Part shown: positions 11,976 to 30,737 of the stretch, piece by piece
Position numbering within the stretch: position 1 is the stretch's first letter
How the letters are laid out: the number at the start of each line of letters is the position of its first letter
Assembly (NCBI GenBank): GCA_030430625.1
Contig: JAUIKL010000001.1
Span: forward strand, 62,001 to 126,000
DNA length: 64,000 nt
DNA from: Gemmatimonadota bacterium
GTDB taxonomy: Bacteria; Gemmatimonadota; Gemmatimonadetes; Longimicrobiales; Gaopeijiaceae
Reading direction: 5' to 3'
Notes under the pieces: generated by a model
What the model was told of the DNA's origin: nothing
Database searches by the model: none
What the model saw: the letters and a program-made list of their open reading frames with translations, nothing else
Translations under genes and position numbers: made by a program

Positions 11976-12952
11976 GCCACCGCTGGGTCCTCGGGGTCGA
12001 CATCGGCGGCACGAACGTCGTCGTGGGCGCCGTCCCGTTGGAGGGAGGGCCACCCGTCGCCTCGATCAGCGGCCCGACACTCGCCGAGCGGGGTGGGGAT
12101 GCTACGGTCGCGACGATCGCTGCGCTGGCCGCGGAGGTGATCGAGACCACCGTGAGATCCGAGGGGGGTGATCGTGCGGACTTCGTAGGTGTCGGGGTCG
12201 GCTGTCCGGGGCCTCTCGACCTCGAGGCGGGGGCCATCGTTCGAACGCCGAACCTTCCGTGGGACGGCTATCCGATTCGTGACCGTGTGGCGGAGGCCCT
12301 CGGCCTCGAATGCGTGCTGGACAACGACGGGAACTGTGCTGCGTACGGAGAGTGGTGGATCGGTGCCGCGCGGGAGGCACACTCGGTGCTCTGCCTCACC
12401 CTGGGTACCGGCATAGGTGGCGGATTCGTCGAGGGAGGGCGGGTCTTTCGTGGCGTGAACGGCGCGGCCTTCGAGGTCGGGCACATCACCATCGAAGTCG
12501 ATGGCCGACCGTGCCCCTGTGGCAATCGGGGCTGTCTGGAGGCCTACGCATCCGCCACCGCGATCGCTGCTCGAGCGCGCGCGCGGATCGAGTCCGGGGA
12601 GGCGTCGACGCTGACCACGTATGCCGGAGGCCTCGAAGGGCTCACGGCCCGAGCGGTGTCCGACGCGGCCCGGGCGGGCGACGGGTTGGCGGCCGAAGTC
12701 ATCGAGGAAGCCGGGCGGATGCTCGGCGTCGGGGTCGCGAGCCTCGTGAACGTATTGAACCCGGAGTACGTCGTGGTGGCTGGGGGTGCAGCCGCCATAG
12801 GCGACCCGCTCTTCGGGCCGATGCGGGACGAGGTCCGCCGGCGCGCCTTCGAGGCGGCGGCCGATGCCTGTCGGATCGTACCGGGCAGCCTCGAGGGACA
12901 GGCCGGGGTCATCGGCACCGCCGGGATCTTCGTCGCGGAGTCCAGCCGATGA
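11972..12952 (+). CDS. ROK family sugar kinase (glucokinase-like)
   Basis: A 326-residue ROK kinase. The N-terminal phosphate-binding loop is [10 protein letters not shown]; the catalytic region has [12 protein letters not shown]; and the zinc-binding ROK signature appears as [14 protein letters not shown]. It probably phosphorylates glucose or a related hexose with ATP in the cytoplasm, but the exact sugar cannot be read from the sequence. The start is TTG in a TTGA overlap with the lepA stop; no alternative start lies before the first beta strand. It is translationally coupled to lepA. Confidence 0.88.
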
Positions 12953-13010
12953 CCGTTCGCTTCTCCCGCGGGGCGCGTGGCGATTCCCGATCCGTTACCA
13001 TCCGGCTCGC

Positions 13011-13028
13011 GGCCCCCCGTCGGGGGCC
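13011..13028 (+). other. GC-rich hairpin in front of the STAS-ATPase gene
   Basis: The arms GGCCCCC and GGGGGCC are perfectly complementary around a CGTC loop. No T-run follows on either strand, so this is not a textbook terminator. It sits in the 112-base gap between the ROK gene and the TTG start at 13065 and could attenuate or separate the two transcripts. Confidence 0.4.
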
Positions 13029-13064
13029 CGGTGGCGCCCCTTCCTTCCCGAGTGAGGCCGAGCG

Positions 13065-13955
13065 TTGAACGTCATCACGGTCCCGAGCAGCTTCGACCGC
13101 GCGACGATCGATTCCTTCCTGGACGAGGTGCACAAGCACCTCGGGGAGCGGATCCTCTTCGATGCCCGCCACGTGCGGTGGTTCGACCCCAACGGTCTTC
13201 TGGGGCTCCTCGTGGCCGGTCGTATGGCGCACGACGCGCATGGTGTACCCCCTCGTCTCGAGCTGCCGGAACAGGCCGACGTCGCCGCCTATGTCGGCCG
13301 GATGGGGCTGTACTCGGCGGCGCGCGACATCTTCGACATGGACGATCCCGGTCGGTCGACGTCCAGCCGGAATTCCGATGTCCTCCTCGAGATCACGCCG
13401 ATCGGGTCCCACGGGGACGTGCATCACGTCGTGGACCAGGTGCAGGGCCGTGCCTCGGCCATCCTGGCCCAGAAGCTGAACTACTCGGTCACCGCCGCCG
13501 TTCCCTTCGCCGTGATCCTTTCGGAGGTGTGTCAGAACATCGTCGAACACGCGGAAGCATCGGGTTGGGTGGCGGCGCAGACCTACTTCTGGAAACAGCG
13601 ACTCGGTCGACAGGTGGTCGTGATCTCGGTCATGGATGTCGGGCGAGGCTTTCGCGGGTCGCTTCAGGACGAACATGCCGCCCGGTACGGGGATCGCTGG
13701 GGTGACGTCACGTCACTCGAGGCTGCCTTCCTTCACGGGCTGACCCGTTTCCCCGACTCGGGCCGGGGGCAGGGAATTCAGCAGATGCGCAAACAGGTTC
13801 GGAAGTGGAACGGGGCGATCTCGATTCGGAGTGGGACTGCACGGATCTCGCAGGTGCCGGAGTGGGACGACACGCCACCGCTGACCGACGGCCTGGCTCC
13901 CGTTCCCGGGGCTCTGATCACGATGGTTCTCCCGGCCAAGGACGAAACGGAGTGA
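13065..13955 (+). CDS. STAS-like domain fused to a GHKL (HATPase) ATP-binding domain
   Basis: A 296-residue soluble protein. Residues 1-95 resemble a STAS/anti-anti-sigma fold (RILFDARHVRWFDPNGLLGL). The position that normally carries a phosphorylatable Ser (DSSG) reads DPNG, so this copy should not be phosphorylated there. After a Ser-rich linker (about 95-112), residues 115-290 form a GHKL ATPase: N box EVCQNIVEHAEAS (E154, N158, H162), G1 DVGRGF (191-196) and G2 GRGQGI (233-238). Related ATPases act as anti-sigma kinases. The TTG start lies in a weak ribosome-site context; the stop overlaps the GTG of the next gene, its likely partner. The specific function is unknown. Confidence 0.72.
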   Translation: MNVITVPSSFDRATIDSFLDEVHKHLGERILFDARHVRWFDPNGLLGLLVAGRMAHDAHGVPPRLELPEQADVAAYVGRMGLYSAARDIFDMDDPGRSTSSRNSDVLLEITPIGSHGDVHHVVDQVQGRASAILAQKLNYSVTAAVPFAVILSEVCQNIVEHAEASGWVAAQTYFWKQRLGRQVVVISVMDVGRGFRGSLQDEHAARYGDRWGDVTSLEAAFLHGLTRFPDSGRGQGIQQMRKQVRKWNGAISIRSGTARISQVPEWDDTPPLTDGLAPVPGALITMVLPAKDETE

Positions 13956-14554
13956 CGGGCGATCCCCTCGATCGGATCGCCATCGATGTTCAGGCCATCC
14001 TGGACGGGATCGGCGACCCGGTCGTGCAGCAGCGCGTGTCGCTGCACTCCTACCTCATCACACGCCCGACGGGGCGGGCGGTCCGGATGGCCATCGAGGC
14101 CCAGCTCCCCGGCCCCGGTCGTCTCTCGGTGTCGGTGATCGACTTCTCCGAAGTGCGTTTGATCGACTTCTCCTGCGCGGACGAGGTCGTGGCCAAGCTC
14201 CTTCTCGCCTACCGGCGGGAGGAGGGACCCGATGCCTTCTTCGTCTTTCGAGGTATCGGTGAGGCACAGGAGCCCCAGGTCCTGGCTGTCCTGGAGCGTC
14301 AGGCTCTGGCGGCCGTCGTGCAGACACCCGAGGGCGTGTACGAATTGGTCGGCGTTCACTCGGACGCCGAGCGGGCCGTGTGGGCGCGCATGGAGGATTT
14401 GGGAACGGTCGACGCCGACGGTGTCGACCGCCTCGTCGAGGTCGACCGGGACGAGGGGGCCCTCGACCGGCTCGTAGCCCGGGGCCTCGTCTTCCGGGCC
14501 CCGGACTCCGGCCGTCTACACGCCCTCAGCCGACTGGTACGACCTGCGTCCTGA
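13952..14554 (+). CDS. STAS (DUF4325-like) protein with predicted C-terminal winged helix
   Basis: A 200-residue protein starting at a GTG that overlaps the previous stop (GTGA). Residues 55-90 contain VIDFSEVRLIDFSCADEVVA, resembling the DUF4325/STAS-like motif (S-FADE) that typically partners GHKL ATPases. Residues 138-195 look like a winged helix: a helix AERAVWARMEDL, a second helix ending at DEGALDRLVARGLV and a hairpin FRAPDSGRLHAL. This would make it a DNA-binding or protein-docking output for the upstream ATPase, although a winged-helix dimerisation role is equally possible. The assignments are by eye and moderate in certainty. Confidence 0.65.
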   Translation: MTGDPLDRIAIDVQAILDGIGDPVVQQRVSLHSYLITRPTGRAVRMAIEAQLPGPGRLSVSVIDFSEVRLIDFSCADEVVAKLLLAYRREEGPDAFFVFRGIGEAQEPQVLAVLERQALAAVVQTPEGVYELVGVHSDAERAVWARMEDLGTVDADGVDRLVEVDRDEGALDRLVARGLVFRAPDSGRLHALSRLVRPAS

Positions 14555-17848: not shown

Positions 17849-18691
17849 TCAGCGTGTCCAAACCACGGAGATCGCGCCGAAGGCCGCATCCAACTCGACC
17901 TCCACCCGACGCTCCGCATCGTCGAAGTCCGGTGATTCGTACACGTCACCGCGCTTGATGAGCCCCTCCGAGTCGATCGCCGTCAGGAAGCTGTCCTTCC
18001 GCAACCGAAGGCCCACACCCTCGGGAATGCGAAGCTCGAGGTGCCCCAGGCCCATGTCGATACTGACCCGACCATCCGATGCCCATCGTCCGTCGAGACC
18101 GAGGGTGATCGAACCGACGCCGGCATCGACCTCGATGCGTTCCGCATTGAGGTTGCCGAGACCGGCGGCGGTGAACTCGGCCGCTCCCACCGCGAAGGTC
18201 GCCGTGCCGATCCGCTCGCGGTTCGGCTCGCTGATCTCGATGAAGGACTCGGATGCACCGGTGCTCAGTTCGAGGTCGGTCAGGTCCAGTCCGCCGAGAT
18301 CGATATCGGCCTGGACCGCGCCGAAGGTCAACTCGAGGTCCATCGGAACCCCACGGGGAAGCTCGAGATCGAGCGACCCGGTCTGACGACCCTTCAGGTT
18401 GATGTCCCGCCCGATCGTCTCGATCCCGAGGCGGAGACGGTCGTTCGAGAAGTCCGCTACCGGCTCGAACTTCTCTTCGTCGTACTCCAGCCTCATCCGG
18501 TAGAGGAGGTCGTCGTCGACCGACCGGACACTGAACTGTCCCGCGCCGTACTCCACCGAGACGCGGAGGTCGTCCACGCGCTCGAGGCGCTGGGACATCG
18601 TCACCGTCCGCCAATCCTGGCCGGTGACTCCGGCCGGCAGGAGGACCGCCGCGAGAGCCACCCCCGATACGATTCGCTTCGTCGTCGTCAT
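17849..18691 (-). CDS. Secreted toast-rack (LiaF/DUF2154-like) adhesin-fold protein
   Basis: A 280-residue protein with a signal peptide (ends near GVTGQ). The rest is a long series of short beta strands with alternating hydrophobic residues (LRLGIETIG, LDLELPRGVPMDLELTFGAV, DLELSTGASES, SITLGLDGRWASDG, GLGHLELRIPEGVGLRLR), the pattern of the toast-rack/DUF4097 beta-helix found in LiaF-type stress proteins. It probably faces the periplasm. The ATG overlaps the stop of the upstream gene (ATGA), so the two are translationally coupled. Exact role unknown. Confidence 0.72.
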   Translation of the reverse strand: MTTTKRIVSGVALAAVLLPAGVTGQDWRTVTMSQRLERVDDLRVSVEYGAGQFSVRSVDDDLLYRMRLEYDEEKFEPVADFSNDRLRLGIETIGRDINLKGRQTGSLDLELPRGVPMDLELTFGAVQADIDLGGLDLTDLELSTGASESFIEISEPNRERIGTATFAVGAAEFTAAGLGNLNAERIEVDAGVGSITLGLDGRWASDGRVSIDMGLGHLELRIPEGVGLRLRKDSFLTAIDSEGLIKRGDVYESPDFDDAERRVEVELDAAFGAISVVWTR

Positions 18692-20214
18692 CGCCCTTTC
18701 CCGTCCGTATCACTCGCGGCGGAGCGCCCGCCGAGATCCATGTCCATGGCCGCCGCCCACGCGGCGTCCGGATCGACTCGACCCGGGTACTCCCTCCGTC
18801 TGCCCGCGCGGGTCAGGAGCACCGCGCCGAACCCGATCTGTGCGGCCGCGAAGACCGCGATCCCACCCGCCAGGATGAAGAGGAAGCCGAACACGCCCAG
18901 GAGGGGCACGATCGAGACGATGTGCCCGGCAATGAACAGCCCCGCGATCCCGATCAGACCACCGAAGAGGGTGAAGATGTGGTTGGACTTCCGGATCCAC
19001 CCCGTCCAAGGGAGGTTGCTGTCCGCCATCCACTCGCCCGCGTTCCTCGCGACGGCCACGAAGCCGAGCACACCCGCCAGGGCAGCCGCCAGAGGGAAGA
19101 GGGGGAGCCAGGCGATCGCGACCGGGATCCCCACGATCGAGATCACGAGGGCGACCGTTCCGAGGAGCCAGACCGGTACGAGGAGGATGCTACCCGCCAG
19201 CCCGACGGCCGCGGAACGACCGGGAGAGCGTCTCGCGGTCTCCGAGACGGCGTCGACGTTCTGTCCCGCGAAGCCGATGAACCCGGCCCCCATGAGCCCG
19301 ATCAGGAAGACCGCGATCAGCTTCTCGACGATGTTGCCGACAGTGCGTGTCACGGGCCGGAAGACCGAGGAGACGCCCCGGCCGTCGCGGTCCCGGCTGT
19401 CACGGAACTCCGCGCGGATCTCGTCACGCAGCTCGGCGCGAAGATCGGAATCCGATTCCCGCTCTTCCTCGAGCAGATCGATGATCCCGTCCCGGACATC
19501 ACCTTCGGAGCGGGCCACCCGTGTGTCCGCCAGTCGGACCTGGCCGAGCACCTCTCCGTCCTCCCTCAGGTCGAGTACCCCGCCGACCACGACCGCGTCC
19601 CCATCCAGCGTACCGTCGATTCGCAGCGTGCCGTCGATCACGACGATCGTGCCCTCGCGGCGATCGGAGATCCGAACGTCTTCGTCCACGTAGACCTCGA
19701 CATCCTCGTCGAGACCGTCGAGCGCCTCCTCCAGAACGTCGAGGCGACCGAGTGACCGGAGGAGGAAACGGCCGAGTGACTCTTCGTCACGCTCGACCCG
19801 GACATCGCGAACCTCGACGTCATCGGCCGAACGGACAGCCCTCTCGAGGGCTTCGTCGACCCGGGTCGCGATCTCGTCCGAGGTCGGCGCTTCCCAGGTA
19901 TCCAGTGCCTCGGCGAGTTCGCCGTTTTCCAGGCTCATAGCGTCCTGGATCAGAGCCCGCCACGCGTCGTCGAGTTCTCCACCGCGCGGATACGAGCCGA
20001 TCTCCGCCCCGTCGACGAAGACCCGTCCGTCCTCGAGAGCGAGGCTGAACTCGGTGTCGTCCTCGAAGACGACGGCGAGAGCGGAGCCGGACGACGACGC
20101 CGAGATGCTCTTGGAGACGATCGCGCGAGACTGCGCGTCGACCGCCGCGGGAAGGACGAGACCGGCGACCACCAGGGCCGTCGCGGCCCTACGAAGCCAG
20201 TCGAGCATGTGCAT
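18688..20214 (-). CDS. Polymer-forming (bactofilin-like) membrane protein
   Basis: A 508-residue protein with a signal peptide (1-28). Residues ~30-150 include an acidic helical region. Residues ~160-235 hold a beta-helix-like stretch with repeated V-I-D-G-T-L/G-D-A units (TIVVIDGTLRIDGTLDGDAV, GGVLDLREDGEVLGQVRLA), resembling polymer-forming cytoskeletal domains. An acidic coiled segment (about 240-275, Glu/Asp/Arg-rich) follows, then about five hydrophobic segments over 290-470 and a short polar tail. It likely spans the inner membrane with the repeat part in the periplasm. It overlaps the anti-sigma gene by 26 bases, and its stop overlaps the next start. The family assignment is by resemblance. 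Confidence 0.65.
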   Translation of the reverse strand: MHMLDWLRRAATALVVAGLVLPAAVDAQSRAIVSKSISASSSGSALAVVFEDDTEFSLALEDGRVFVDGAEIGSYPRGGELDDAWRALIQDAMSLENGELAEALDTWEAPTSDEIATRVDEALERAVRSADDVEVRDVRVERDEESLGRFLLRSLGRLDVLEEALDGLDEDVEVYVDEDVRISDRREGTIVVIDGTLRIDGTLDGDAVVVGGVLDLREDGEVLGQVRLADTRVARSEGDVRDGIIDLLEEERESDSDLRAELRDEIRAEFRDSRDRDGRGVSSVFRPVTRTVGNIVEKLIAVFLIGLMGAGFIGFAGQNVDAVSETARRSPGRSAAVGLAGSILLVPVWLLGTVALVISIVGIPVAIAWLPLFPLAAALAGVLGFVAVARNAGEWMADSNLPWTGWIRKSNHIFTLFGGLIGIAGLFIAGHIVSIVPLLGVFGFLFILAGGIAVFAAAQIGFGAVLLTRAGRRREYPGRVDPDAAWAAAMDMDLGGRSAASDTDGKGR

Positions 20215-21421
20215 AGCGGCCTTCCGAAGGCCGGTCGGTGACGAGGTTGCGGTACAACACGCGCAGCGCGAGGACCGAGACGATCATGTACCCCACGACC
20301 GCCGCACCCAGGAGGAGCGGCGAATCGGAGAGGACTTCCACCGCCGAAGGACCACCGATCGCGGTGACGGCGCGCGTGAACGTTCCGCCGACGGCCGAAC
20401 CCGCGAGACCGACCAGGTCCGCGATCTGCCACGCGACGAAGGACAGGAGGGACCCCATGGTGACGGTCGGGTGGGAGAAGACCGCCCACACCGCGAGGCC
20501 GAAGATCGCGAGAGGAGTCACGGCCATCCCCGTGAGGGCGGCCATGGTCTCCCTGGGTCGACCGAGGGTGCGCCGGATCGCGACGGCCAGACCGGAGCGC
20601 TGGGGCACGGGCGCGGCCGCGGCCAACATCTGCTCGATCCGGTACGCCGCCATGACACGTTCCCCGAAGCCTTCGCTCGGCTCAGGCCGCTCCAGCGCCC
20701 GCAGGTCGACGTGGAGCCGACGCCACGCGTGGACCTCCGAGGCACACGACGCACACTCGCCGACGTGAGCCCGCACACGCGCGACGGCTCGCGGTGTCAG
20801 CGCACCATCGACGAAGTCCTGAAGCAGGGCCTCGGGCAAATGGGCCGACGTGTCCCCCTTGGCGAGTCGGGCGACCCGCTGGCGGATGCGTGCGGCCAGG
20901 GGGAGCGTCGCCGACGCATCCACACGGGCCATGACCCGCTCCCGGAAGCCGTTGGCCGGGGCGAACGAGCGCAGCCCGTCGAGATCCCGGAAGATCACGG
21001 CCCACGTGTCGACTTCGAGACTGCACGACGCGCAGGCGGCCAGGTGCGCTTCGATGCGCTTCGTCCGTCGGGGGCCGAACGCACCCTCGAGGAGATCCTG
21101 GATCGTGTCCTGATCGAGGTGCCCCTCCGCGTCGGCCGACAGGCCGGCCTGAACCCGGTCCCGTACCCGTGCCGCGAGCGGCTGAGGCTGGGGAAGCTCG
21201 ACCTCGGACATGACCCGCTCCGCGAAGCCGTGCAGCGGCCGGTGGGAACCGAGTCCGTCGAGATCCTCGAAGAGGACGCGCCAGCCGTCGAGTTCGGCCG
21301 AACACCGGGCGCACGACTCGAGGTGCTTCTCGGCGGACGCGCGCTCCCGACGGGAGAGCTCGCCCTCGAGAAACGCCTGGAGGCGTTCCGGGCTCAGGTG
21401 ATCGGCGTGCTGTGAACTCAC
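20189..21421 (-). CDS. Membrane anti-sigma factor with three zinc-finger repeats
   Basis: A 410-residue protein. Three consecutive ~95-residue repeats each carry the anti-sigma zinc motif H-x3-C-x2-C: HLESCARC, HLAACASC and HVGECASC. Each is followed by a helix with LDGL/LRAL and then GF-ERVM. Zinc-binding anti-sigma proteins normally have one such domain. The final ~130 residues contain two to three membrane helices (PLAIFGLAVWAVF, LLLGAAVVGYMIVSVLAL). It probably sequesters the sigma factor encoded 142 bases upstream. The GTG start at 21421 has a strong AAGGAG eight bases upstream. It is followed by an overlapping membrane-protein gene. Confidence 0.82.
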   Translation of the reverse strand: MSSQHADHLSPERLQAFLEGELSRRERASAEKHLESCARCSAELDGWRVLFEDLDGLGSHRPLHGFAERVMSEVELPQPQPLAARVRDRVQAGLSADAEGHLDQDTIQDLLEGAFGPRRTKRIEAHLAACASCSLEVDTWAVIFRDLDGLRSFAPANGFRERVMARVDASATLPLAARIRQRVARLAKGDTSAHLPEALLQDFVDGALTPRAVARVRAHVGECASCASEVHAWRRLHVDLRALERPEPSEGFGERVMAAYRIEQMLAAAAPVPQRSGLAVAIRRTLGRPRETMAALTGMAVTPLAIFGLAVWAVFSHPTVTMGSLLSFVAWQIADLVGLAGSAVGGTFTRAVTAIGGPSAVEVLSDSPLLLGAAVVGYMIVSVLALRVLYRNLVTDRPSEGRYAHARLAS

Positions 21422-21563
21422 TTCGGGACTCCTTCTTCGGTCCGTCTCCCACTACGGCTCGGGACCGAGCGAAGTTTCATGAAAAGTGTACCTCGGACGC
21501 CACTCTTTCGAGAGTCCGTAGGCCGATGTCCCACAGGGACGTAGCGCCGGTCCGACATCGTCA

Positions 21564-22232
21564 CTAGGCCAGGTGAGCGAGCGATTTTCTGAGCTCGCCG
21601 CGCGCGCGGTGGAGGTAGGTCTTCACGGTACCGAGCGGGAGGTCCATGATGTCGGCGATCTCGTCGTACGCGTACCCCTCGACGTGGCGCAGGACGATGA
21701 CGGTCCGGTACTCCTCCCGGAGGCCCCCGATGGCGTCTTCGATCTGGTTCCCGAGCTCCCGGTGCTCGACGTATTCGGCCGGGTTCTCGTCCTTCGACTC
21801 GATGACGACCTGGCTCTGACTGATTTCGTCGGCCGTGCGAGCGTGGGGGGACCCGTCGATCGAGACCGTGTCGAGCTTCCGCTTGCGCAGATAGTCGATC
21901 GTGTGGTTGTTCGCGATCTTCAGGATCCAGTTGCTGAACTTGTAACTGGTCTTGTAGGTGCCGATCGCGTTGAAGGCCCGGATGAACGCTTCCTGGGCCA
22001 GATCTTCGGCCAGCGTGCGGTCCCGGACCATCCGGTAGATGAGGGAAAAGACCGGGCGCTCGTAGCGGACGAGGAGTTCGCGGAATGCGGACTCCTGGCC
22101 TCGCGCCGCGAAGGTCGCGAGGTCTCGGTCATCCAGCGTGGCGTAGTCCGGAGCGGCCAGCGTTCGTGATCCCTGCCGTGAGTCAGCGAACCAGCGCGTC
22201 GAGCGCGGCAGAGAAGCGGTATCGGTGCTCAT
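21564..22232 (-). CDS. ECF-type RNA polymerase sigma factor
   Basis: A 222-residue sigma-70 family protein with only regions 2 and 4. Region 2 spans residues ~45-115 (FRELLVRYERPVFSLIYRMV, LAQEAFIRAFNAIGTYK, FSNWILKIANNHTIDYLRKR) and region 4 spans ~165-215 (LREEYRTVIVLRHVEGYAYD, LPLGTVKTYLHRARGELRKS). The linker between is acidic. The ATG at 22232 is chosen over longer frames because the upstream codons look non-coding. It is divergent from ubiE, and the gene after it encodes the three-finger anti-sigma factor. It likely responds to envelope stress given the membrane-protein neighbours; the target promoter is not known. Confidence 0.88.
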   Translation of the reverse strand: MSTDTASLPRSTRWFADSRQGSRTLAAPDYATLDDRDLATFAARGQESAFRELLVRYERPVFSLIYRMVRDRTLAEDLAQEAFIRAFNAIGTYKTSYKFSNWILKIANNHTIDYLRKRKLDTVSIDGSPHARTADEISQSQVVIESKDENPAEYVEHRELGNQIEDAIGGLREEYRTVIVLRHVEGYAYDEIADIMDLPLGTVKTYLHRARGELRKSLAHLA

Positions 22233-22295
22233 CGAGAGTGCCCTACGGTGCCCCGACCTCCGGGGTTTCGACCGCGCGCGCACGCCAGGCTCCCG

Positions 22296-22324
22296 TTGAG
22301 TGCCCCTCCCGCTTCCCGTAGCTT
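22296..22324 (+). promoter_or_regulatory. Promoter of ubiE
   Basis: TTGAGT (22296-22301), 17 bases, TAGCTT (22319-22324). The transcript start would be near 22331, giving a leader of about 64 bases before the ATG of ubiE at 22395. The element lies inside the sigma-factor upstream region on the other strand. Confidence 0.6.
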
Positions 22325-29573: not shown

Positions 29574-30737
29574 TCAGCCGAGGACCCGCTCGAGGTCCGC
29601 GATGATGTCCGAGACGTCCTCGATACCGACGGAAAAACGGACGAGCCCGGGGGTGATCCCCATGGCTGCCCGCCGGTCCTCGGGTACCGAGGCGTGCGTC
29701 ATCAGCGCCGGGACGTTCACCAGGGACTCGACCCCTCCCAGACTCTCGGCCAGCGCGAAGATCTCGAGGTGCTCGGTGAGCGCCTTGGTCCGCTCGAGGG
29801 TCCCGACGTCGACGGACACCATGCCGGTGAAGCCGCTCATCTGACGCTTGGCCAGTTCGTGCTGGGGGTGGGACGGCAGACCGGGATAGAGGACACGGTC
29901 GACCGAGGGGTGCTTTTCGAGCCACTCGGCCACGGCCTGACCGTTGGCGTTGTGGCGCTCCATCCGCACGTGGAGCGTCTTGATGCCGCGCAGGGTGAGC
30001 CAGCAGTCCATGGGGCCGGGCACCGCGCCGGACGACTTCCGGATGAAGTAGAGGTCGTCGGCCAGCCCTCGATCCCGCACGGCCACGAGGCCGCCGATGA
30101 CGTCCGAGTGCCCGTTCACGTACTTCGTCGACGAGTGGAGGGTGAAGTCGGCACCGAGTTCGAGGGGCCGCTGATTGAAGGGGGAGGCGAAGGTGTTGTC
30201 GACGGAGAGAAGGGCGCCGTGTTCGTGTGCGAGATCGGCGATCGCCGCGATGTCGCACAGCTTCATCATCGGGTTCGTAGGGGTCTCGACGTGCACGAGC
30301 TTGGTGTTCGGACGCATGGCGTCGGCCACCGCCTGCGTGTCCTGGGCGTCGACATAGGTGAACTCGATCCCGAATCGGCTCAGGACGTGGTTGAACATCC
30401 GCGTCGTGCCGCCGTAGGTGTTCTCCTCGCTCACGACGTGGTCACCGGCGGAGAGGCGTTTCACGATCGCCTCGATCGCCGCCAGACCCGAGGCGAAGGC
30501 GATGCCGTGATTGCCCGCTTCCAGCGCGGCAATGCTCGCTTCGAGCGCCTCCCTCGTCGGGTTGGCCGTGCGCCCGTAGTCGTACGACCCGTTCTTCGGC
30601 TCCCCCACGGCCGGCTGGACGTAGGTCGACGTCTGGAAGATCGGGGTCATGATCGCGCCGGTGACCGGCTCCGGCTCGACACCCGCGTGGATGGCCAGCG
30701 TACCGAACGAAAGGCCCTGCGAGGCCGCTTTGCTCAT
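29574..30737 (-). CDS. Transsulfuration PLP enzyme (cystathionine gamma-synthase/lyase family)
   Basis: A 387-residue aminotransferase-fold enzyme. The PLP lysine lies in SSTKYVNGHSD. Other family landmarks are QTSTYVQPAVGEPKNGSYDY, YGRTANPTREALE and ETPTNPMMKLCDIAAIA, with SLGGVESLV near the C-terminus. Members include cystathionine gamma-synthase, gamma-lyase and O-acetylhomoserine sulfhydrylase; substrate specificity cannot be told from sequence alone. The ATG at 30737 gives the usual length. It is divergent from glmM across a 223-base gap that holds no convincing promoter. Confidence 0.9.
   Translation of the reverse strand: MSKAASQGLSFGTLAIHAGVEPEPVTGAIMTPIFQTSTYVQPAVGEPKNGSYDYGRTANPTREALEASIAALEAGNHGIAFASGLAAIEAIVKRLSAGDHVVSEENTYGGTTRMFNHVLSRFGIEFTYVDAQDTQAVADAMRPNTKLVHVETPTNPMMKLCDIAAIADLAHEHGALLSVDNTFASPFNQRPLELGADFTLHSSTKYVNGHSDVIGGLVAVRDRGLADDLYFIRKSSGAVPGPMDCWLTLRGIKTLHVRMERHNANGQAVAEWLEKHPSVDRVLYPGLPSHPQHELAKRQMSGFTGMVSVDVGTLERTKALTEHLEIFALAESLGGVESLVNVPALMTHASVPEDRRAAMGITPGLVRFSVGIEDVSDIIADLERVLG

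Follow-up and report, generated by a model that had tools for sequence, protein, structure and literature searches.

In the classical partner switches SpoIIAB/SpoIIAA and RsbW/RsbV, the kinase and its antagonist are each single-domain proteins, and a sigma factor and a PPM phosphatase complete the circuit. A two-gene layout described in EMBO J in June 2026 consists of CapK, with HTH, STAS, and GHKL domains, and CapS, with a STAS domain followed by a winged helix, and acts as a regulator of anti-phage operons (PMC13373217). According to the experimentally tested mechanism, CapK activated by single-stranded DNA (ssDNA) phosphorylates Ser54 of CapS, upon which the CapS dimer dissociates and the adjacent immune operon is de-repressed (PMC13373217). 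VapKSC, a related system, combines an HTH-less kinase with a STAS protein that is the antitoxin of VapC (PMC13373217). Our searches of the literature on DUF4325, on STAS proteins in Gemmatimonas, and on fused STAS-GHKL proteins found nothing relevant.

Here we report the analysis of a gene pair from a Gemmatimonadota bacterium, located in a window (the whole stretch of DNA that was analysed) of 64,000 nucleotides. The two genes, named here P1 and P2, encode a probable protein kinase and its probable phosphorylation substrate, the latter being of a DNA-binding type. P1 (positions 13065..13955, plus strand) is a STAS-GHKL protein kinase-like gene of 296 aa with a TTG start codon at 13065 and the stop codon at 13953-13955, recognised from its open reading frame and translation, a Pfam match, the AF2 model, and homology to CapK. 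P2 (13952..14554, plus strand) encodes a 200-aa protein with a STAS-like domain and a winged helix, is assigned by homology to CapS, and ends with a stop codon at 14554. As had been noticed in a sequence-only reading of this locus, P2 begins with an overlapping GTG, which is positioned at 13952 and shares 4 bases with the end of P1. Chance can be ruled out as the origin of the pair, since homologous pairs occur throughout the class. We propose, with a probability of about 0.6, that P1 and P2 constitute a CapK/CapS-type switch of kinase and substrate, with a housekeeping regulatory role in this bacterial class.

The fusion of a STAS domain to a complete GHKL domain in P1, seen in the sequence-only reading, was confirmed. 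The STAS domain spans about residues 1-96 (13065..13352, plus strand), as supported by AF2 and by a profile match to 4hyl, and the GHKL (HATPase) domain spans residues 106-290 (13380..13934, plus strand), as supported by HATPase_c, by AF2, and by Foldseek similarity to CheA P4 and anti-sigmaF. The three GHKL boxes are intact and their box residues are invariant in 75 of 75 class homologues: E154, N158, and H162 in the N box EVCQNIVEHA (residues 154-163; 13524..13553, plus strand), D191, G193, and G195 in the G1 box DVGRGF (residues 191-196; 13635..13652, plus strand), and R234 and G237 in the G2 box GRGQG (residues 233-237; 13761..13775, plus strand), the latter motif being invariant in its entirety in alignment A3. 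In Pfam searches, P1 matched HATPase_c at residues 149-258 with a score that barely passes the cut-off (E=9e-6) and STAS_2 at residues 4-60 below the threshold (E=0.011); HATPase_c was matched in all 26 class members of P1 that were scanned. With the class profile of P1, a STAS protein of solved structure (4hyl) was matched at E=0.0013, and RsbW (6m36) gave a weak match at E=0.46. The AF2 model of P1 has an overall pLDDT of 76 and a pTM of 0.82, with a confident STAS fold followed by a GHKL fold; the STAS part is built from strands 2-5, 30-33, and 64-66 and helices 15-24, 42-59, and 71-79, at a pLDDT of about 90. The best Foldseek matches of P1 in the PDB were CheA P4, a SpoIIAA homologue, and anti-sigmaF complexes, all of them weak, and neither the P1 nor the P2 model had a match below E=0.001; a search of NCBIfam gave no match. 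The sole match in the PADLOC defence-system search, a 1750-position DrmA model lying over the GHKL part, was taken as generic GHKL similarity and set aside.

The D-P-N-G turn of P1 (residues 41-44; 13185..13196, plus strand) does stand where the usual STAS phosphosite is expected, and SpoIIAA-type STAS proteins have a phosphoserine at the site matching Pro42. Pro42 and Gly44 are both invariant in the 75 class homologues. Since the phosphosite position is a proline in all of them, the STAS domain of P1 probably does not act as an antagonist that becomes phosphorylated, and the invariant serine of P2 together with the invariant proline in P1 points to P2 as the likely substrate. The suggestion of the earlier reading that the antagonist is fused to the kinase was thus replaced with another one: the fused STAS domain is better read as a regulatory portion of the kinase itself, one that cannot be phosphorylated and probably helps to read the input. 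Four tryptophans of P1, W39, W168, W176, and W248, are invariant or almost invariant across the class (in all 75 homologues, position 39 is W or F and position 248 is W), and a surface for a ligand or for nucleic acid may lie there.

The STAS-like domain of P2 covers about residues 28-134 (14033..14353, plus strand), based on an AF2 model of moderate to low confidence and on the alignment with the STAS domain of CapS. Its earlier description as DUF4325-like is retained in part. The model has a STAS-like fold, the sequence has the R..A.......V..iDFs.V...D...ADE layout of DUF4325, and DUF4325 (PF14213) was matched weakly in 5 of 23 P2 relatives (best value 0.009); no member in the 21 genomes searched reached the curated PF14213 cut-off, and P2 alone gave no Pfam match. 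The predicted phosphosite is Ser74 (codon 14171..14173, plus strand), which lies in the motif D-F-S-C-A-D-E and aligns with Ser54 of CapS; together with D72, D77, and E78 it is invariant in 72 of 72 homologues. The C-terminal winged helix that had been predicted for P2 is indeed present in the AF2 model, as three helices (138-150, 155-160, and 165-176) and a wing (180-191) with a pLDDT of 84-93. This domain, comprising about residues 137-195 (14360..14536, plus strand), is further indicated by the other P2 relatives among the 23, which match the winged-helix Pfam families TrmB (1e-4), MarR_2, and AsnC-type, and by a profile match to 9z71. The best Foldseek matches of the P2 model in the PDB were long and poorly superposed, while the winged helix alone superposed well; 9z71 was absent among the Foldseek matches listed, probably because that library is older than the structure.

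Comparison of the two proteins with CapK and CapS established the closest described relatives of the pair. The top PDB match of the profile of P2 relatives was 9z71, the CapS protein of Enterobacter roggenkampii (WP_001567865.1); the CapS structures comprise 9z71 and probably 9z72/9z73. In profile-profile alignments by hhalign, P1 matched CapK with a probability of 98.2 (E=4e-14) over 266 columns that begin after the CapK HTH domain, and P2 matched CapS with a probability of 95.0 (E=4e-8) over 145 columns, which extend across the winged helix. Both proteins are therefore full-length homologues of a published pair, and the sequence-only view of the locus as an undescribed module was superseded (PMC13373217). 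In both systems a gene for a STAS-GHKL kinase precedes one for a STAS-winged-helix protein, with no sigma factor; they also share the GHKL boxes including the N-box asparagine (N158 in P1, N218 in CapK), and the D-x-S phosphosite of the substrate, with D52-x-S54 of CapS aligned to D72-x-S74 of P2. Judged by their features, P1/P2 are homologous to CapKS and probably function like it. At the same time, CapK has an N-terminal HTH domain whereas P1 opens with the first strand of the STAS domain, the DNA contacts N145, K151, and G169-G170 (the GG of the wing) of CapS are not kept in P2, and CapK/CapS are mobile, patchy in distribution, and mostly located beside an immune operon, whereas P1/P2 are fixed, class-wide, and located beside metabolic genes. 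Because the HTH domain on the kinase, the DNA-contact residues, and the immune neighbourhood are all lacking, we do not assign the pair to CapKS proper. VapK resembles P1 in having only STAS and GHKL domains without HTH, and its Phe54 at the ssDNA position has a likely counterpart in a phenylalanine in P1 of the window, but VapS has a short tail and pairs with the VapC nuclease, in contrast to the winged helix of P2. On a plasmid of the cyanobacterium Nostoc linckia NIES-25 (L119:3995-5515), we observed another STAS-GHKL and STAS-winged-helix pair, annotated as hypothetical proteins; its kinase is without HTH and its partner has a winged helix, and the pair reads as an intermediate linking P1/P2 and the CapKS groups.

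DNA binding by P2 is uncertain because the winged helix is the least conserved part of the protein (mean pairwise identity of 26%, versus 47% for the STAS domain), has a median net charge of -2, and is without the CapS contact residues: N145 is not conserved, the position of K151 is occupied by D or E in 42 of 72 homologues, and the GG is absent. The loss of these contacts, the negative charge, and the fast drift of the domain would also fit a protein-binding module comparable to the C-terminal tail of VapS, in which case phosphorylation by P1 would release or capture another protein in a post-transcriptional switch; the STAS protein of the related VapKSC system binds a protein partner as well. 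We regard this alternative as possible but unlikely, as the winged-helix fold is kept across the class, relatives match the TrmB, MarR, and AsnC families of DNA-binding proteins, several members are strongly basic, and R177, G187, A191-L192-S193, and L195, in the wing and at the C-terminus, are among the positions of the winged helix conserved within the window's own family.

To describe the distribution of the pair, we analysed homologous loci of Gemmatimonadota, including Longimicrobiales and Gemmatimonadales. P1 and P2 each occur once in the genome of the window. P1 was identified in 38 and P2 in 39 of 39 relatives; in the relative without P1, a contig begins right at P2. Among 200 genomes of the phylum, P1 was found in 190 and P2 in 191 (~95%), and the two are present together or absent together in 199, a co-occurrence that had been proposed as a check on the pair. 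Both are absent from the same nine genomes, namely the six genomes of the out-of-class family f10, the two of family f8, and G126; in the sole discordant genome, G161, P2 is matched weakly (E=2.5e-5) and P1 is missing. A profile of higher sensitivity likewise did not find P1 in those P1-less genomes, in a search that included no positive genome. The identity to P1 is 64-70% within the genus and 42-57% across the class. Under vertical inheritance, the pairwise identities of P1 are expected to correlate with those of LepA from the same loci, and the Spearman coefficient between them is 0.68. P1/P2 are a fixed single-copy chromosomal pair in nearly every genome of the class.

The two genes are also tightly coupled. 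P1 precedes P2 on the same strand in all 79 distinct loci; they overlap by 4 bases in 47 loci and lie within 150 bp of each other in 26 more, so that 73 of 79 pairs are overlapping or separated by at most 150 bp. The exceptions in spacing belong to family f3. In this family (L114, L115, L116, and L117) the gap between P1 and P2 is 0.5-1.3 kb, and in the two examples that were read (L116 and L117) it contains a cyclophilin-type peptidyl-prolyl isomerase-like gene. The usual gene order is lepA, a ROK kinase, a PfkB-like kinase, P1, P2, and a Cys/Met PLP enzyme, with ftsE/ftsX/EnvC-like genes farther along in families f4 and f5. In the window, neither the PfkB nor the PLP gene is present at this place, and aldehyde dehydrogenase and Mrp genes are located 3' of P2; a search of the rest of the window gave no PfkB-like match. 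The slot of the PfkB-like kinase gene of most relatives is occupied there by a mini-ORF of 39 codons (12949-13068, ATG at 12949), which has 4-base overlaps with both the ROK stop codon and the TTG start of P1 and is possibly a remnant. A Cys/Met PLP enzyme that is 40% identical to the gene following P2 in relatives is encoded at 29580-30701 on the minus strand of the window, and may be a separate paralogue or a relocated gene. No immune operon was recognised in the neighbourhoods of the pair, and no PIN/VapC gene in the neighbourhood clusters beside P1/P2. What is new compared with CapKS is the setting: a pair that is near-universal and single-copy across a whole class and located by metabolic genes.

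These data bear on a stricter reading, in which P1/P2 would be a true CapKS system that senses ssDNA arising from DNA damage and controls a distant defence or damage response. The homology to CapK and CapS favours it, as do the conserved basic residues R179 and R182 and the invariant tryptophans of P1. The ssDNA-stacking residue W68 of CapK likely corresponds to residue 10 of P1, according to a hand alignment; this position is a phenylalanine in 8 of 75 homologues, including F10 of the window, which resembles Phe54 of VapK and also favours this reading, but a leucine in 63 of 75. An equivalence of W68 with P1 W39, given by MAFFT, was false, as MAFFT had placed the CapK HTH domain on the P1 STAS domain, and was replaced with hhalign and the use of an HTH-less CapK from Sphingobium. 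The predominance of leucine, the class-wide occurrence of the pair, its metabolic neighbourhood, and the lack of a recognised immune operon, as opposed to 348 of 443 published capK loci that lie beside one (PMC13373217), make ssDNA sensing of this kind rather improbable.

With the classical switches SpoIIAB/SpoIIAA and RsbW/RsbV, the pair has in common the GHKL serine kinase fold, the STAS fold of the substrate, and a serine where the second STAS helix begins; it differs from them in the Pro-marked STAS domain that the P1 kinase itself carries and in the winged helix of the P2 substrate. Consistent with the statement in the sequence-only reading that no sigma factor is adjacent, the nearest one is an ECF-like gene 7.3 kb away (Sigma70_r2 match at about 21876-22070, minus strand), and this gene was not found near other copies of P1/P2. 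Neither of the two outcomes that this reading had named as evidence against itself, namely a different C-terminal fold in P2 and homologues always accompanied by a linked sigma factor, came true. The ECF-like gene (at about 21.9 kb) occurs at 17849-22300 on the minus strand of the window together with a large membrane-like protein without a Pfam family and a LiaF/toast-rack protein, and this group looks like a sigma/anti-sigma/envelope-stress unit. SpoIIE-type phosphatases were detected in 21 of 21 relatives sampled, and a separate classical pair, an RsbW-like kinase gene beside a SpoIIE phosphatase gene, lies on another contig (G000 contig C234). Genome G140 has P1 and P2 but neither a SpoIIE-type (PF07228) match nor an HATPase_c_2 match over the cut-off, so the pair needs no classical RsbU/RsbW circuit; G126 is without the pair and has two SpoIIE-type and two HATPase_c_2 matches. 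P1/P2 do not track the classical system. That P1 is an anti-sigma factor and P2 its antagonist in an ordinary sigma-B type switch, with the sigma factor encoded elsewhere, is highly unlikely and was rejected on the architecture (the winged helix has no place in such a switch), on the lack of a sigma factor recurring in the P1/P2 neighbourhoods, and on the independence from SpoIIE/RsbW genes, even though P1 shows weak profile and fold similarity to RsbW and anti-sigmaF, Sigma70_r2 is matched 21 times in the genome, and SpoIIE-type phosphatases are widespread among the relatives.

Within the preferred CapK/CapS-type switch, P1 would bind ATP via its GHKL domain and phosphorylate Ser74 in the STAS domain of P2. 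As in CapS, the phosphate on Ser74 would break the P2 dimer or a complex of P2 with its partner, and the binding partner of the winged helix would change; the phosphorylation, its direction, and its effect are proposed here by analogy with CapKS. The likeliest output would be altered transcription, either of the P1/P2 operon itself or at other sites, with no sigma factor involved, and the input is probably not ssDNA read in exactly the way of CapK. A wider scenario, which we offer tentatively and with considerable doubt, is that a vertically inherited, near-universal switch of the CapKS type with a non-ssDNA input runs a core physiological response across the Gemmatimonadota class, and that housekeeping pairs of this kind gave rise to the immune CapKS and the VapKSC systems as mobile derivatives.

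The fixation of CapKS relatives in ~95% of the sampled genomes of the phylum suggests that this STAS switch, which works without a sigma factor, has an older origin or a wider role than immunity. Regulation in Gemmatimonadota is little studied, and the pair represents a putative single-copy core regulator in this group that is directly testable; knocking out both genes in a member available in culture could show what P1/P2 controls.
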